This document shows positions 5,436 through 38,638 of a stretch of 64,000 nt of DNA, piece by piece. Each line of letters opens with the position of its first letter. The first letter of the stretch is position 1. The notes under the pieces were generated by a model, which was given only the letters and a program-made list of their open reading frames with translations, did not search any database and had not been told where the DNA came from. Origin of the DNA: Neolewinella agarilytica. Its GTDB lineage: Bacteria > Bacteroidota > Bacteroidia > Chitinophagales > Saprospiraceae. The DNA is taken from NCBI RefSeq assembly GCF_900110645.1, contig NZ_FOFB01000008.1, positions 1 to 64,000 on the forward strand, given 5' to 3'. The translations under genes were made by a program, and so were the position numbers.

Positions 5436-5451
5436 TGTTCCACGTGGAACA
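5436..5451. other. putative parS centromere site 1
   Basis: TGTTCCACGTGGAACA is a perfect 16-bp palindrome fitting the parS core TGTTnCACGTGnAACA bound by ParB in chromosome partitioning. A second perfect copy lies 46 bp away (start to start). ParB/ParA genes are not in the window, so binding is inferred from sequence and pairing. Confidence 0.7.
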
Positions 5452-5471
5452 AAGGGAGCAGTGCCAAAAGA

Positions 5472-5507
5472 AAGAGGGTGATGTTCCACGTGGAACATCA
5501 CCCTCTT
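5472..5507 (-). terminator. terminator of the thr operon, with parS in the stem
   Basis: A 36-bp perfect palindrome (arms beginning AAGAGGGTGATG, centre CCACGTGG) lies 21 bp past the thrC stop. On the minus strand it is followed by TTTCTTTT, the pattern of an intrinsic terminator. Its centre is a full parS-like site, so one sequence could act as RNA terminator and as DNA-binding site. Confidence 0.75.
5482..5497. other. putative parS centromere site 2
   Basis: The same TGTTCCACGTGGAACA palindrome, here forming the tip of the larger 36-bp perfect palindrome at 5472-5507. Having two sites in 62 bp makes chance very unlikely and is typical of parS clusters near replication origins. Confidence 0.7.
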
Positions 5508-10425: not shown

Positions 10426-11517
10426 TTAACGATTAACAATCTTAAGGAGAGGCCGGAATTCGTATAAAGTAGGGACACGTGTCGTACCGGGCCTGCTTAT
10501 TTCAACAATGCGGTTTTGCTCCAGTTCTTTCAGTATCCTGATTAATGTTCTCTTTCCAACTCCGGGTAACTGATAAAAGGTAGTGTTACTGAAAATTGGA
10601 TTACTAAAGATGAAATCCTGCGTACTTCCTGCGTGCACAGAATTAGTTGCTTTAGCAATAACTGACTTCATTTCCTCATAAAGATCTAGTGTACTCTTTG
10701 CTTGCCCAATCGTTTTTTGTGCTTGCTCTACAACACCGTTTAGAAAAAAAGTTATCCAGCCATTCCAGTCTTCACTTGTGCTGATTGCTTGTAACCGATG
10801 ATAATATTCAGACCGGTTCGCCTCCAGGTAATCACTCATGTAGAAAAAAGGCTGGTGAATCACTTCCTTATGATACAGGAATAGCGGAATCAGAATCCTG
10901 CCCAACCTACCATTTCCATCAAGAAAAGGGTGTATGACTTCAAACTGAGCATGCATAATCGCCAATTGAATCATGACATCTTCACCTTCTGCATGCAAAT
11001 ATTTTTCCCATTCATAAAGTGCTTCCAGCATAGCTGGTGGAGATGGAGGTACGTGTGATGCTGTTTCAAGCGTACTTCCTGGCGGGCCAATCCAATTCTG
11101 TATTCTACGAAAGTTGCCACGGTCACTATGTTGCCCCCTTACACCATTCATCAATACACTATGAATCGTTCGAATAACATTGAGTGTTAAAGGCAATTTT
11201 TCCATCTCGTCTTTACCGGCCAACAGTGCCGTACGATAGTTTAAAACCTCTTCAAGGTCATCTTTGTCCGTACCTAGAGGCGTACGTTTTCCGTCAAAAC
11301 TAGCGATATCCTCAAAGGTCGCTCTGGTACCTTCAATCTTGGAGGACAAGACTGCCTCCTTATTTCTTAGCGGCGATATTAGTAATTCAGGACTAACGAC
11401 TGCTCTTAATATACCGTCATACCGTGCTACAGATCGATTAGCCTTCCCCGCCAGAGGAATTAGCTGACGAAAATTCAGGTCCTTAATTGGCAACCGATGT
11501 GGAATAAAAGGCTTCAC
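10426..11517 (-). CDS. class II Fic protein with C-terminal winged helix
   Basis: A protein of about 363 residues from the GTG at 11517 (V-K-P-F-I-P-H-R-L-P matches the usual N-terminus of this family; a TTG ten codons earlier would place the start inside an operator palindrome). The Fic motif HPFLDGNGRLGR is intact. An N-terminal SSKIEG segment fits the inhibitory motif [S/T]xxxE[G/N] of class II Fic proteins, which blocks the ATP site. The last 60 residues form a winged helix (GVGKRTLIRILKELEQNRIVEI), suggesting DNA binding and autoregulation through the palindromes upstream. It probably AMPylates a protein target; the target is unknown. Confidence 0.88.
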   Translation of the reverse strand: MKPFIPHRLPIKDLNFRQLIPLAGKANRSVARYDGILRAVVSPELLISPLRNKEAVLSSKIEGTRATFEDIASFDGKRTPLGTDKDDLEEVLNYRTALLAGKDEMEKLPLTLNVIRTIHSVLMNGVRGQHSDRGNFRRIQNWIGPPGSTLETASHVPPSPPAMLEALYEWEKYLHAEGEDVMIQLAIMHAQFEVIHPFLDGNGRLGRILIPLFLYHKEVIHQPFFYMSDYLEANRSEYYHRLQAISTSEDWNGWITFFLNGVVEQAQKTIGQAKSTLDLYEEMKSVIAKATNSVHAGSTQDFIFSNPIFSNTTFYQLPGVGKRTLIRILKELEQNRIVEISRPGTTRVPTLYEFRPLLKIVNR

Positions 11518-11536
11518 TGGTCGAAGATAAGAAAAA

Positions 11537-11641
11537 ATTAGTGCCAAAAATTAAAAAAATGGCACTAATAGCCATTAATAATCCCCATTAGTGACACGTG
11601 TGTCACTAATGGGGATTATTAGTGACACGTGTGTCACTAAT
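11537..11641. promoter_or_regulatory. palindromic operator array upstream of the fic gene
   Basis: Three inverted repeats share TTAGTG half-sites. IR1 is ATTAGTGCCA (11537-11546) with TGGCACTAAT (11560-11569). IR2 has two 18-bp arms (11580-11597 and 11600-11617) around GT, core ATTAGTGACAC. IR3 repeats the core with 11-bp arms (11618-11628, 11631-11641). IR2 and IR3 both contain GACACGTGTGTC. A related GACACGTGTC lies near the 3' end of fic (10474-10483). The winged helix of the Fic protein is the obvious candidate to bind here (inference). Confidence 0.7.
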
Positions 11642-17646: not shown

Positions 17647-17853
17647 TAAGAGAAAAGATTGAACGACGAGATGACAGCAAGTTAGTTTTAATTCGTCGTT
17701 AATCAAGCTCCCCCCGGCTAGCCCTCCCGTTTTACTGTCCTTCTTTTATCCGGCCAGAATAGCAAAAGGCAAAAGAAAAATTCGGTGGAAAAGTACCACC
17801 TGAAATGGCGAACTTTCGCTGCATAAGACCCCGTCTTAACAATAACAAATTTT

Positions 17854-18987
17854 TTAAACCACATTTTCCACCGTTTTATCCACAGCTTTCAACAGGGTGC
17901 CGGGGCGGAACAAATAGTTGAGGTAAACGATGGCTCCAACCAGGGCAATTGCCCCAAACTGATGGGCAACTCCAAGGCCTACCGGCACCTGTCCCTGACT
18001 ACTCATTACCGTTGCTATTCCAAGAATTGCCTGAGTTATCAACAGGATTATCAACAGGGTATTCGCATTCTGCGTATATGCCCCGATTTTCGCCTTTCGC
18101 GTCTGTAATAGATAGGCTATCACCATGATTATCAGTGTATAAGCGGTCATCCGGTGCAAGAACTGGATTAAGGCTGGTTGGAAGAGGCTTTGCTCGTAAT
18201 ACACCAAGTTATCCACAGTCCATGCCGAAGCATCGTGTAAAATAGGCGGCACAAAGTGTCCATTCATATCGGGCCAGGTCGGGTAGGGCAAAGCTGCTTT
18301 CGCTCCACTCATGATTCCGCCCAGTATGAGCTGAAGAAAAAGGACGATATTCAGGGGCCAAAGCCACTTATCCACGGCAGAATGTGGAAAAGCTCTTGTT
18401 TTTGGTTGGATTACTTTTAGGATTGTCCACAAAAGGTAGGAAAAGAGGGAAATCCCCAGGCAGAGGTGAATCGTGAGCTTGTAAGCATTCACCCAGGGAC
18501 GATCAATAAGCCCGCTGGCGACCATGATCCACCCAAAGCTGGCCGCCAGGGCCGCCAGCAGTACCGTAATGCCCAAACGACGCATCAGCGGGCCATCCAG
18601 CCACCCTTTACGCCAAAAGATGGCAAAGCCTACGGCGAAGACCAATCCCATCATACGCGCCCACTGCCGATGGAACCATTCCCAGAAGTAGATAAACTTG
18701 AAATCCTCCATCGTGATGTCCGCAAAGATCTTCTCATACTGAGGGCTGGCCTGGTACTTCTCAAACTCAACCTGCCAATCAGCCGCGTTCAGTGGCGGCA
18801 TGGCACCACTCAGAGGTTCCCACTCCGTAATCGAAAGCCCCGACTCCGTCAGCCGGGTAATGCCACCAATTACGATTTGCCCCACCACCATGATGAGCCC
18901 AACGATGAGCCAGATCTTAACTGCGCGGTGATAGCCTCCGCCGATCAAATTCGGTTGCCCGTCCGTTTTTTTTACACTCGCCTCCAT
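17854..18987 (-). CDS. ctaA: heme A synthase (COX15/CtaA)
   Basis: A 377-residue inner-membrane protein with about eight TM segments that oxidises heme O to heme A for cytochrome c oxidase. The N-terminal IGGITRLTESGLSITEW and WEWFHRQWAR motifs are those of COX15-type synthases. Conserved heme-ligand His residues are visible in WFHRQ, TIHLCLG, FLHRMT and VAHQFG. The rest of the oxidase operon is not nearby. Two perfect TTATCCACA sequences occur inside the gene (17876-17884, 18209-18217), part of a DnaA-box-rich zone that continues upstream. Confidence 0.94.
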   Translation of the reverse strand: MEASVKKTDGQPNLIGGGYHRAVKIWLIVGLIMVVGQIVIGGITRLTESGLSITEWEPLSGAMPPLNAADWQVEFEKYQASPQYEKIFADITMEDFKFIYFWEWFHRQWARMMGLVFAVGFAIFWRKGWLDGPLMRRLGITVLLAALAASFGWIMVASGLIDRPWVNAYKLTIHLCLGISLFSYLLWTILKVIQPKTRAFPHSAVDKWLWPLNIVLFLQLILGGIMSGAKAALPYPTWPDMNGHFVPPILHDASAWTVDNLVYYEQSLFQPALIQFLHRMTAYTLIIMVIAYLLQTRKAKIGAYTQNANTLLIILLITQAILGIATVMSSQGQVPVGLGVAHQFGAIALVGAIVYLNYLFRPGTLLKAVDKTVENVV

Positions 18988-19622
18988 CTCTTAATAGTTA
19001 TTAATACTTTTTCAAAATTTAAATCCTTTTATCGTTATTAGGACTGTGGAAACGGGGAGAACTTCTTGCCTTTTCATTAGGTCTTGCCGTTCTGCCCATT
19101 ATTCCACGTCTTTTCCACGGTGGCCTAACAGTGAAAAGCCTTTATTGATCAGGCTTTGGCAAAATTATCCACAAGAGCGACTATCATTGTCAACAGAATA
19201 ACTTTTTCGCTTCTGAGTGGGGAAATATGACGGCAAACTGTCAGTGGACTGTTAGGCGACAAGGGCAAAAAATGTGGAAATGTGGATAAAGTGGCCGTTT
19301 TGGTGACCATGGGCAAAAGCACTGTTGATAAGTGGGGAGTACTCCACGCTTCTCCACTTTTAGAGCGTGGAAAACGCGATTAGCTAAACAGCTGGTAAAC
19401 AATGCCTTTACGTATACTTAATCTTGGGGCTGTGGAGAACGGTTTTTCGGGTTGGAGCTTCCGTCGGGTAATTAGTACAGCGTATACCGAGGAGCGAAAC
19501 CTCTGAAAACACCTTCGCCATTGCCAGCTATTAAAACCTGCCGCGTTGTGTTATGGATCAAAATAGAATCGCCGCTGTATTATGTTAAGTAGGTTGATTT
19601 GTGCAAAAGTCTTTCATGAGCA
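18988..19622. other. candidate chromosomal replication origin (oriC)
   Basis: A 635-bp stretch without a gene. It begins with an AT-rich block (18990-19041, unwinding-element-like). It then carries many DnaA-box-like sites: perfect TTATCCACA at 19165-19173 (+) and 19281-19289 (-), TTATCAACA at 19323-19331 (-), TTGTCAACA at 19187-19195 (+), and weaker boxes near 19046, 19098, 19273 and 19428. More boxes lie in the flanking ctaA gene. Bacterial origins combine exactly these parts. The nearby parS-like pair and the change in gene orientation at 23.5 kb agree. dnaA itself is not in the window, which is not unusual in Bacteroidota. Confidence 0.65.
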
Positions 19623-20066
19623 CTAGCGGATCCCTTCAATCCTCATGGTCTCTCCTTCCAGCTGCAGCCGGGTGAAATCGCGTAGGTTATCGGTATAGAG
19701 TACTTCTGCCCCGGCTTTAAGGGCGGCTTCATAGTGGAGGGCATCATAAATGACGGAACTCATAAGACCCAACTCACTGCAACGGCTTATGGCTGCCTCA
19801 TAATCGGCTTTAGTCAATTCCACAATAGTCAAAAGATTACCAATACCATTTATGATAGTTTCTGCAGCAGCGGCTGGAGAAAGATGTATGCCAAACTTTG
19901 TGGGCTTGGTAATATTACGGTACAACTCAGCATAAGCATGTGTGGTAGTGGATACTGCAGTACCACTGGAAAGAGCCTTTTGCAAAGTCAACTTAGCTTT
20001 GTCGTGCAGCTCATGTTTAGTGATGAGAGCTGCAAGTAAAACGGAAGTGTCAAAGTAACTAATCAT
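19623..20066 (-). CDS. PIN-domain toxin (VapC-like RNase)
   Basis: A 147-residue PIN domain. Acidic metal-binding residues are visible at Asp6 (SYFDTSVL), Glu47 (AYAELYRNI), Asp108 (SVIYDALHYEA) and Asp126 (YTDNLRDF). VapC toxins cleave RNA with Mg2+ and are held by an overlapping antitoxin. Here the ATG overlaps the stop of the AbrB-type gene by 8 bp (ATGATTAG), the normal arrangement. It lies directly beside the candidate origin. Confidence 0.9.
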   Translation of the reverse strand: MISYFDTSVLLAALITKHELHDKAKLTLQKALSSGTAVSTTTHAYAELYRNITKPTKFGIHLSPAAAAETIINGIGNLLTIVELTKADYEAAISRCSELGLMSSVIYDALHYEAALKAGAEVLYTDNLRDFTRLQLEGETMRIEGIR

Positions 20067-20343
20067 CTAAGCCAAGGAGTTTTCTACCACGCTCTTCATG
20101 GCCTTCATTGATGAAGTTTTTAATGTCAAAATAGACCTTCTCTTCCTCCTGGTACATAATAACGGGCCAACCCCATTCCGTATATTCTACATAAGGCTGT
20201 ACTGCGGGGAACTGCTTGAGAATGATAGAATTGGAGAAAATATCGAACTCAAGTTCGAATTCTGTTCCATTATCTATTCCTGCCTCATCACGCAGTTTTT
20301 TAGGAATCAAGACCCGACCAAATTTGTCAATTGTAGCCCTCAT
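20059..20343 (-). CDS. AbrB/SpoVT-type antitoxin of the PIN toxin
   Basis: A 94-residue protein from the ATG at 20343. The N-terminal MRATIDKFGRVLIPKKLRDE is a swapped-hairpin AbrB/MazE DNA-binding domain; the C-terminal half is the toxin-binding part. It would neutralise the PIN protein and repress the pair. Upstream TTGGCAA motifs (20356-20361, 20375-20381, 20388-20394) are possible operator half-sites. An upstream ATG at 20394 would read through the neighbouring terminator, so it is rejected. Confidence 0.88.
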   Translation of the reverse strand: MRATIDKFGRVLIPKKLRDEAGIDNGTEFELEFDIFSNSIILKQFPAVQPYVEYTEWGWPVIMYQEEEKVYFDIKNFINEGHEERGRKLLGLDD

Positions 20344-20354
20344 TACACTAGTAA

Positions 20355-20394
20355 TTTGGCAACTAAACACTTTTTTGGCAAAAAAAGTTGGCAA
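20355..20394. promoter_or_regulatory. possible operator of the PIN/AbrB pair (TTGGCAA repeats)
   Basis: TTGGCAA occurs three times in 40 bp upstream of the antitoxin start (TTTGGCAAC, TTTGGCAAA, GTTGGCAAG). AbrB-type antitoxins usually bind such repeated half-sites in their own promoter. The last copy is also the distal arm of the T9SS gene terminator. Confidence 0.4.
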
Positions 20395-20414
20395 GAATCA
20401 TCATTATTGCCAAC
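20380..20414 (-). terminator. intrinsic terminator of the T9SS surface-protein gene
   Basis: On the minus strand GTTGGCAA and TTGCCAAC form an 8-bp stem with a 12-nt loop (20387-20414), followed by seven T residues. It begins directly at the stop codon at 20415 and separates this gene from the downstream toxin-antitoxin pair. Confidence 0.8.
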
Positions 20415-23400
20415 TCACCGCAAAACCGTCACGTCCCCCGAAAACTCCAGCACGGAACCATTAATATAGCGCACGGAAGTGTAGTAAACGAAAACGGCGG
20501 GGTTGACGGGCTTGCCGTCTACCTTTCCGTCCCAGCCGAGGCTGGGCTCATTGGGCAGAAAGTCGTTGCGTTCGAAAACGAGGCCGCCCCAACGGTCATA
20601 GATACGCAGAGAGTTGATTTGATCCACCGCCCGGCCGCCGAATACGGTGAAGCCGTCGTTGGCACCGTCTCCGTTCGGGCTGAAGACGTTGGGAATGTAG
20701 AGCGGTTTGTCTTCGATCACTTTCACGGCGACCATCGCGGTATCCTGGCAACCCGCAGGGTTGGTGCCAATGACCGTATATATGGTAGTGGCAACGGGGG
20801 CGGCGCGGACGCGGGTGCAGAGTGCGTCCAGACACAGCAGTGAATCCGGGCCCCAAACATAGCTCACCGGCGTATAGTTACTGACCGCCCGGAGGATGGT
20901 GTCAAAGCCCAGGGTAATGGTTCGCTCCGGACCGGGATCAATGATGAATTCCCGGGGCTCGGTCAGGGTACCATCAAGGGAGTCAATGCAGCCATTAGCG
21001 TCCTGCACGTAGAGGCGGTAATCTCCCGCCAGCAAATTTTCCAGCAAGGGGCCTGTCTGGAAGGTCTGCCCGTCAGCACTGTACCCATAGTCCGGCGTAC
21101 CGCCGGTAGCGGAGAGCAGGAAGGAGCCCGTAGGCTCACTATTACAGGTCAGGTTGTTGGTCTGCTCCAGCACGGGAAAAATCTCGTTGGGCTCCGTCAG
21201 GGTTTCGGTCAGTGTTCTTACGCAACCGTTTTGGTCGGTGAGGCTGATGGTATAAGTGCCGGGGACGAGGTCCGTCCGGACAGAATCCGTCGTGCTGCCA
21301 TCTGACCAGCGGTAACTGTAGCCCGGCCGACCGCCGCCGGATAGCACGGTGATGCGTCCGTCGTCCGTACCAAAACAGGTGCTGCCTTCGGCATCTCCCA
21401 CCAGGGTAATGGCCGGTGGCTCCGTAATGATGATCTCGAATTCTCCGCGGCAGCCCGTCGCGTCGAGCGCCGTAACCGGGTAAGTGCCAGCCGCCAGCCC
21501 GCTGCGAACATTACTGGGCTGGAACCCGTCGCCAAAATCAAACTGGTAGGCGGGCTGGCCGTTGGCCAGCTGGATCTCAATCCGGCCCGTAGCTTCGCCA
21601 GCGCAGACCGGCTCAGTAAACACCGGTACCCCCTGCACCAGGCCGAGTTCAAGCTCGTTCACCTCAATGTCTTGCTCAACGGGGCAGCCATTGGCATCCT
21701 GAACCCGGACGTTTACGGTACCGACGGACAGGTCAGTCAGCTGGTTGTTGGCGCTGAAGGGGCTATTGTTTAAGCTGTATTCGTAAGGTCCTTGTCCGCC
21801 GCTCAGGACGGTAAATTCCAGTGCCCCGTTCGTGCCACCGGCGCAGTCGGGCATGGTGATCAAGGTATCAAAAGTGAAAACCGGCGGACCACCGACGCTG
21901 AAGGAAAAAGCCTCTTCGCAGCCGGAAGCATCGCTCACGGTGACGGTGTAATCTCCCTGGGCCAGGTTGTCCAGGTCTTCGCTCATTTCGCCGTTATCCC
22001 AATTAAAGGAAAGTGTTGTTGGTGAAAAGCTACTGCTGGCTGTCAGGTTGATGGAACCGGTGATGTCGTTAGGGCAGAGTACATCCGTAGTCATCGCCGT
22101 ACCCGTAAACTGACCGTCACAGCAGATGACATTTACTTCCTGCTGGTTGAGAATCTCGCGGCATTCGCGGGAGGTCTCGATGATGAGCGAAACTTCAGGA
22201 CTACCCGGCACGCCGAAGACGACGGAGTGTGGGCCCGGGCCGCTGGCCGTCTGGGGCGTGGCCGTTGGGCCAAAGTCCCACTCCCGGGAGACGATCATGT
22301 CCAGCGAAGTAGACTGATCTTCAAAAGTAAGCGCATCGCCCACGCAGACTTCGCTGCTGCTGAAGGTGAAGGCGGGCTCCGGGCCAACGAAGGTTCCGGT
22401 GCCTTCAAACTCGATCGAGAAACCGTCTCCGGAAGCAGAGAAGTTGAAAATTACCACAGCGTAGCTTCTCCCGGATATCATATTGATCGCCGACGCAAAA
22501 TTATTGTTTCCGGTTTGGCAACCGCAGCTTTCAGAGACGTCCGGATCGGTAAGGCTCAGCCCCGTTGGCCCCAGGCAGGGAAGGTTTGCTGAATCCGGAT
22601 TGCCTCTGGTTTCGCCTGAATACATACAACGTAAAGTTTGCCGGGAGCCACAGTCGTCTAGCCCATTGGTAAGTTCATATACCGCAAAGTCAATGTCTTC
22701 GTTTACTGCCGGGCCAAGTGGGGTAATGGTAAAACCAAGAGTACCGGATTGGTCACAGGTCCATTTATACCAGGAAGAGTTATCTTCTGTCGGAAGGCAA
22801 TCATTATCCACACAGCCTTGTGCCTGTAGGTCTTCACGAATAAGACCATTCCCCGAGAGAGACTGTACGCTAAAGGGAGATTTATCACAAAGAACTACGC
22901 CGGTGGAACAATCCGCGTTTGGTTCGGGAACGGCATCAAACTGATTGACACAGAGCTCGAAAGTACCGTCATTACCATTGCGTGCACCAACAAGAATAAG
23001 ATAGGTTTCGCCTACCACAAGGTCCGTGAGGATAGCATTTACGCCATGGACGTTTTCAAAGGGAGATTTACACACCAGAGCATCCGCATCGGTTAGGGAG
23101 CCGCAACCATTTTCATAAACGGTCATTTGTGGTTCCCGAAGAGTCCCGCGCTGGTTGCCGGGTATGATACCGTCAACGGTAACCGTAGCAGAATTACGCA
23201 AGGCAACGAAGGAGTACCATACATCCCGCATTTGATCAGGCTCACTGATACAGACGTCGTATCCATTTTGATCAAAAGACGCGCTGGCCCCTACTGTAGA
23301 AAAAGCCCCGTTTCCGGAGCAGAAATCCAGTACTTCAGGAAGAACGATGGCATCAATACATTCATCGTTCGCCTGCTGGGCAAAGGAAACGAAAGAGCAA

Positions 23401-37909: not shown

Positions 37910-38638
37910 ATGTTGATCAGAAAAATTATTCCACTGGTATGTTGCATGCTACTGGCTTTCTGTTTCACCCAACCCGTTTACGCTCAGAATAAAGGCAAAG
38001 AAAAACAAGAAGCCAAGGTCAAAGGCAAAGCTGAGGAGATGCAGGCCAGAGGTAAAGACAAAGCTGAAGAGATGCAGGCCAGAGGTAAAGACAAAGCTGA
38101 GGAGATGCAGGCCAGAGGTAAAGACAAAGCTGAGGAGATGCAGGCCAGAGGTAAAGACAAAGCTGAGGAGATGCAGGCCAGAGGTAAAGACAAAGCTGAG
38201 GAGATGCAGGCCAGAGGCAAAGACAAAGTTGAGGAGATGCAGGGCAGAGGTAAAGACAAAGCCGAGGAGATGCAGGCCAAAGTGAAAGACGGCAGTGCTA
38301 AACTGGATGATGATGGATCTGGTAATGCTTACGGTAAGAACAAAGGGGAACTATCCGGAAAAGCTTTTGGCCAGGCCCGTGCCGAGGCTGCCAGGTCAAA
38401 GCAAAAAGAAGTGAAGGAGGAGGTCGATGAAGTTACCGAACAGAGTGAGGCGCTGGAATCGGAAGCCCGACAAAAGATAAGCAAGGCCCGGGAAATGCTT
38501 GAAAAAGAAAAGGCTGCTGGAAAAGCTTCTGCTGAACAGCTTGCCAGGAAAGAAGCGGCTATCCAGCGTGCTGAAGCGAAGCTTAAGGAGCTCGAAGCTG
38601 ACGTTGAAGCTGTTAAGCAGAAGGTAGGAAATGGATAA
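37910..38638 (+). CDS. exported protein with eight 11-residue tandem repeats
   Basis: A 242-residue protein with a signal peptide (MLIRKIIPLVCCMLLAFCFT...VYAQ). Residues 37-124 are eight units of GKDKAEEMQAR, forming a charged, probably amphipathic helix of 11-residue period (LEA- or apolipoprotein-like). The rest is helical coiled coil (SKAREMLEKEKAAGKASAEQ). Family unknown. A stress-protective or envelope structural role can be suggested from LEA-like composition only. Confidence 0.8.
   Translation: MLIRKIIPLVCCMLLAFCFTQPVYAQNKGKEKQEAKVKGKAEEMQARGKDKAEEMQARGKDKAEEMQARGKDKAEEMQARGKDKAEEMQARGKDKAEEMQARGKDKVEEMQGRGKDKAEEMQAKVKDGSAKLDDDGSGNAYGKNKGELSGKAFGQARAEAARSKQKEVKEEVDEVTEQSEALESEARQKISKAREMLEKEKAAGKASAEQLARKEAAIQRAEAKLKELEADVEAVKQKVGNG
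38018..38281 (+). repeat. 33-bp tandem repeat, eight units
   Basis: Eight in-frame 33-bp units encode VKGKAEEMQAR, then five GKDKAEEMQAR, one GKDKVEEMQGR and one GKDKAEEMQAK. The central units are nearly identical at the DNA level, implying recent slippage or unequal exchange, so copy number probably differs among strains. Confidence 0.95.

Follow-up and report, generated by a model that had tools for sequence, protein, structure and literature searches.

A candidate chromosomal replication origin beside COX15 in a Saprospiraceae-type bacterium, with a putative second array of DnaA boxes inside the gene

The 635-bp gap next to COX15 in the window (the whole stretch of 64,000 nucleotides that was analysed) is in all likelihood the chromosomal origin of replication (oriC) of this Saprospiraceae-type bacterium (Bacteroidota). 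The origin is also likely, at a distinctly lower level of confidence, to be bipartite, with one sub-origin in the 3' half of COX15, an unrelated and intact metabolic gene, whose coding sequence would then be under selection both for the encoded protein and as a DnaA-binding site, throughout a clade to which Lewinella and Phaeodactylibacter belong. The preliminary description had proposed a chromosomal origin in the gap, and this proposal is supported because the region lies within about 12 kb of parS, a marker that does not depend on DnaA boxes, because its box cluster is unique, its boxes and the codons under them are conserved and a trio-like element and an AT-rich block follow one another in the order known from other origins, and because DnaA has the canonical motif and the contig with dnaA is free of perfect boxes. 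The linkage to parS we consider decisive.

Boxes and unwinding module of the gap

The window contains five perfect copies of TTATCCACA (17876, 18209, 19165, 19281, and 22804), exactly where they had been placed before, whereas 0.34 are expected in 64 kb and none of 100 shuffled windows reached five. Genome-wide the perfect box is not enriched (33 copies in 6.22 Mb; 30 of a reversed-pattern control), and the cluster at 17876–22812 is the only site of the genome with at least three perfect copies inside 5 kb. When 1.6-kb stretches of the 227-kb contig (C50) were ranked by a weighted box score, the best one (17832–19431) scored 25 and the runner-up 4, and in a relative (G013) the top stretch of the sampled 4.17-Mb contig was again at COX15 (16; next 6), uniqueness referring to the whole genome for perfect boxes and to contig C50, part of contig C37 and samples of one relative for relaxed boxes. 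The copy at 22804 is isolated and lies inside a gene for a cell-surface protein. The candidate origin had originally been confined to the gap. The gap boxes are real, including TTATCAACA at 19323 on the minus strand and TTGTCAACA at 19187, but the cluster extends beyond the gap, since the copies at 17876 and 18209 belong to a conserved array in COX15 (Table 1).

Table 1. Features of the candidate origin region and of the parS pair (positions in the window)
Feature	Sequence	Position	Strand	Remark
parS (ParB centromere)	TGTTCCACGTGGAACA	5436..5451	.	pair, first site
parS (ParB centromere)	TGTTCCACGTGGAACA	5482..5497	.	pair, second site
COX15/CtaA (heme A synthase) gene, intact		17854..18987	-	Pfam PF02628, 294 bits; left of gap
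In-gene DnaA-box array		17864..18431	.	eight box-like sites; 3' half of COX15
In-gene box	TTTTCCACC	17864
In-gene box	TTATCCACA	17876 and 18209
In-gene box	TTATCAACA	18036 and 18048
In-gene box	TTATCCACG	18368
In-gene box	TTTTCCACA	18383	-
In-gene box	TTGTCCACA	18423
Putative intergenic half of origin (oriC core)		18988..19622	.	between COX15 and PIN-domain gene
AT-rich candidate DNA-unwinding element		18990..19041	.	conserved blocks CTTAATAGTTATTAA and TTTATCGTTATTA
DnaA-trio-like element	CTA ATA ACG ATA	19030..19041	-	3 nt from box 19045-19053
Box	GTTTCCACA	19045..19053	-	beside trio-like element; nearly invariant in genus
Weak box	TTTTCCACG	19111..19119	+	box scan, genus comparison
Perfect DnaA box	TTATCCACA	19165..19173	+	kept across genus
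DnaA box	TTGTCAACA	19187..19195	+	box scan, genus comparison
Perfect DnaA box	TTATCCACA	19281..19289	-	one-base overlap with box-like ATTTCCACA at 19273-19281
DnaA box	TTATCAACA	19323..19331	-	TTATCCACA in most relatives
Weak box	TTCTCCACT	19350..19358	+	box scan, genus comparison
Weak box	TTTTCCACG	19366..19374	-	box scan, genus comparison
Weak box	TTCTCCACA	19431..19439	-	box scan, genus comparison

Up to about position 19440 the gap is conserved in about 20 genomes of the same genus, in which the boxes hold their positions, though the right-hand neighbour gene differs. At 19273–19281, for example, this genome has ATTTCCACA and the conserved sequence is TGTGGAAATGTGGATAA. COX15 and the conserved portion of the gap stay together in the same-genus relatives inspected; to the right these carry other genes than the PIN-domain and MazE-type antitoxin genes found here, a VapBC-like toxin-antitoxin pair (19623–20394) that adjoins the candidate origin and was not seen there in the relatives inspected. 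An explanation of the gap by an RNA is without support because the 64-kb window contains neither an Rfam family at the gathering threshold nor a tRNA. Other genes of the window encode a Fic/DOC family protein (Pfam; 10426–11547), a protein with the motif HCFPNGNGR (256–849) that resembles a second Fic-type protein and has a helix-turn-helix-like partner at 840–1298, and a predicted secreted protein (37910–38638) with several near-identical 11-residue repeats (MQARGKDKAEE).

As the preliminary description had stated, dnaA is absent locally: the gene is found on a separate contig (C37:150967–152328), on which the genome-wide search for perfect boxes found none. The DnaA encoded there carries GGRDHSTV, which we take to be the canonical box-reading motif of the protein.

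The AT-rich block at 18990, already recognized from its composition, is confirmed. No 50-bp duplex in the whole 227-kb contig is less stable than the one it contains, and the block is conserved in the genus. In Bacillus subtilis and Helicobacter pylori the DnaA-trio/BUS module consists of a box, a short GC spacer, triplets with a constant middle base and AT-rich DNA (PMC8235120; PMC8287927). On the minus strand the order from 19045–19053 onward is GTTTCCACA, GTC, CTA ATA ACG ATA and then the AT-rich block, and the same succession of elements, with triplets of the trio-like kind after the short GC spacer, is found across the family. A DnaA-trio requires a run of three or more 3'-NAN-5' triplets no farther than 16 bp from a box. 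Read 3'–5', the triplets of the window are GAT TAT TGC TAT, of which the third breaks the run; this triplet (ACG) is off consensus in this genome, and relatives have CTGATGATGATA. The relatives show CTG ATG ATG ATA or CTA ATA ATG ATA at this position, often behind two overlapping boxes (e.g., TTATCTACAAATCCACA), and four consecutive 3'-NAN-5' triplets are present in six of the loci (L064, L071, L076, L078, L081, and L163).

The box array inside COX15

The sites in COX15 occur at identical offsets in the gene of about 20 same-genus genomes, and their layout largely recurs in the loci of Phaeodactylibacter, Lewinella and other relatives (L162–L168 and L194). The array is absent from COX15 of the Chitinophagaceae, flavobacteria and one alphaproteobacterium compared. 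The boxes are spaced by about 160 bp (160, 161, and 159) and include two doublets at 12-bp spacing. Neither this array nor the parS pair, although both lie in the window, had appeared in the preliminary description.

Conservation of positions within a gene can be driven by the protein, which is why synonymous codons were compared only among sequences sharing the amino acid. Codon identity was 0.80 inside the in-gene boxes versus 0.49 outside (Mann-Whitney p about 3e-8; about 2e-8 with amino-acid correction), and isoleucine was encoded by ATA in 31 of 39 cases inside the boxes versus 33 of 374 outside. When the box pattern was slid along COX15 the mean was approximately 0 and the maximum of 185 shifts was 0.30, slightly above the observed 0.28, it being noted that shifted boxes can fall on other boxes. 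From the conservation of synonymous codons and the bias toward ATA inside the boxes it follows that the DNA of the in-gene boxes is itself very probably under selection. Synonymous sites at 18532–18573 are also somewhat more conserved and are outside any recognized box.

Linkage to parS and alternative readings

The clustering of parS near oriC in most bacteria is well established (see PMC7614844 and PMC3899335). In the 6.2-Mb genome TGTTCCACGTGGAACA is present solely as the twin sites in the window, about 12 kb from the gap, flanked by a peptidase M1 gene and the gene of threonine synthase. All 17 genomes of the genus that were examined, counting this one, have a parS near COX15 and always on its downstream side: in 16 of them the matches include copies at 6.0–12.6 kb from COX15, and in the remaining one (G013) there are two copies, with one mismatch each, at 10.3 kb. 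The relatives have one to four copies; some also have a few scattered two-mismatch matches elsewhere, which differ from the exact palindrome. Of 15 genomes from other genera of the family, 10 have parS and COX15 on a shared contig (0.9–33 kb apart), and the remaining five have them on separate contigs. Outside the family the linkage is mixed, with distances of 6 kb (G049), 50 kb (G056), and 169 kb (G054), and the rest mostly on separate contigs. The genome has, besides the parS palindrome, a ParB gene (C20:109431–109964), as is characteristic of a chromosomal ParABS system. This sole chromosomal-type ParB gene found is off the parS contig, and parAB is not beside parS in the draft assembly.

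GC skew, which had been suggested as a check on the origin, is uninformative in this group and speaks neither for nor against it: there was no usable turn in C50, in the 160 kb around dnaA or in samples of a relative's 4.17-Mb contig, the skew being weak and the assemblies incomplete. On the latter contig (G013) gene orientation is best divided by a single switch at 2.1 Mb (bootstrap range 0.25–3.15 Mb), and the cumulative orientation curve is also low at 0.73–1.28 Mb, COX15 being at 0.79 Mb. GC skew and gene orientation are here too weak to place an origin, and this is the chief weakness of the argument. A search for 16S gave no match in the genomes searched and did detect it in control genomes; in these assemblies the rRNA genes are therefore probably either absent or masked.

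The cluster of boxes could have arisen by chance in an AT-rich gap, and indeed single perfect boxes are no more common genome-wide than the reversed control. This reading has a negligible probability: no shuffled window gave five copies, and the conservation of positions and codons across about 20 genomes already refutes it. It is also conceivable, though very improbable, that the boxes regulate the transcription of COX15 or titrate DnaA and that the true oriC is elsewhere. The boxes do flank and overlap COX15, and DnaA doubles as a transcription factor in other bacteria. However, boxes so close to the 3' terminus of COX15 are ill placed for promoter control, parS is linked in all same-genus genomes, a trio-like element and an unwinding block are present, and there is no competing cluster in the sequence searched. 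On these grounds control of a promoter as the only function is rejected.

More serious is the reading that the gap with its unwinding block is by itself oriC, the array in COX15 being a separate site for DnaA titration or timing without contact with the unwinding complex. Some members of the family (L171, L173, L188, L198, and L199) have few or no in-gene boxes and yet have COX15 beside parS, most of them with boxes in the gap, so that an origin in the wider family can do without the in-gene array. Set against this are the fixed layout of the in-gene boxes in several genera and the fact that the two halves enclose the unwinding block, an arrangement known from bipartite origins. We regard a self-sufficient gap as possible but rather doubtful, and favor the array in COX15 as a working half of the origin, an assignment that we would call reasonably probable. 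As in a bipartite oriC, a spacer lies between two conserved arrays of boxes (17864–18431 and 19045–19440), and the region combines a unique box cluster with an AT-rich element beside the boxes and a parS 12 kb away.

The elements themselves, their uniqueness in the contig or the genome, their conserved positions and the selection at synonymous sites are observations; from them we infer DnaA binding, opening, looping and initiation at the locus as follows. DnaA would bind the gap boxes (19045–19440), and from the box at 19045 a DnaA oligomer would extend along the strand with the trio-like element (19030–19041) and open the AT-rich block (18990–19041), where the helicase would be loaded. The in-gene array (17864–18431), separated from the unwinding block by about 560 bp, would form the other half of the bipartite origin and act via DNA looping or by keeping DnaA nearby. 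ParB bound to the parS pair (5436–5497) would then segregate the newly copied origins.

Significance and comparison with known origins

In this large environmental group origins cannot be located by proximity to dnaA or by GC skew. COX15 together with parS provides a practical landmark, both for choosing the start points of genomes and for coverage-based estimates of growth rate. The in-gene array offers a clear example of a protein gene overlapped by likely replication signals, and its role, as part of the origin or only in holding DnaA, is directly testable by synonymous recoding. Our literature search found no paper that places an origin at COX15 or describes one from the Saprospiraceae; predictions for complete genomes of the family may exist in DoriC, which was outside the search. 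New here are the site beside COX15 and its conservation in the family, and the proposed bipartite layout with one half inside an unrelated, intact metabolic gene.

In Bacteroidetes a location of oriC remote from dnaA is described as common, one predicted example being chromosome 1 of Prevotella intermedia (PMC4755523), and the missing dnaA is therefore unsurprising in itself. The two cases have in common a cluster of boxes with dnaA elsewhere. They differ in that the prediction for P. intermedia came from skew transitions and Ori-Finder, whereas here skew is uninformative and the case is carried by the linkage to parS and by comparative conservation.

The bipartite oriC of B. subtilis and H. 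pylori consists of two box clusters separated by dnaA. The present region is similar in having two arrays several hundred bp apart, of which one stands beside a box, a GC spacer, a DnaA-trio-like element and an AT-rich block. It differs in that COX15 is in the place of dnaA, which is on another contig, that one array is inside coding sequence, and that the triplets are mostly ATG or ATA rather than CTA. As in BUS (PMC8287927), a DnaA box lies within 16 bp of triplets with a conserved middle base, followed by AT-rich DNA; the third triplet is off the rule in this genome, and several relatives conform to it completely.
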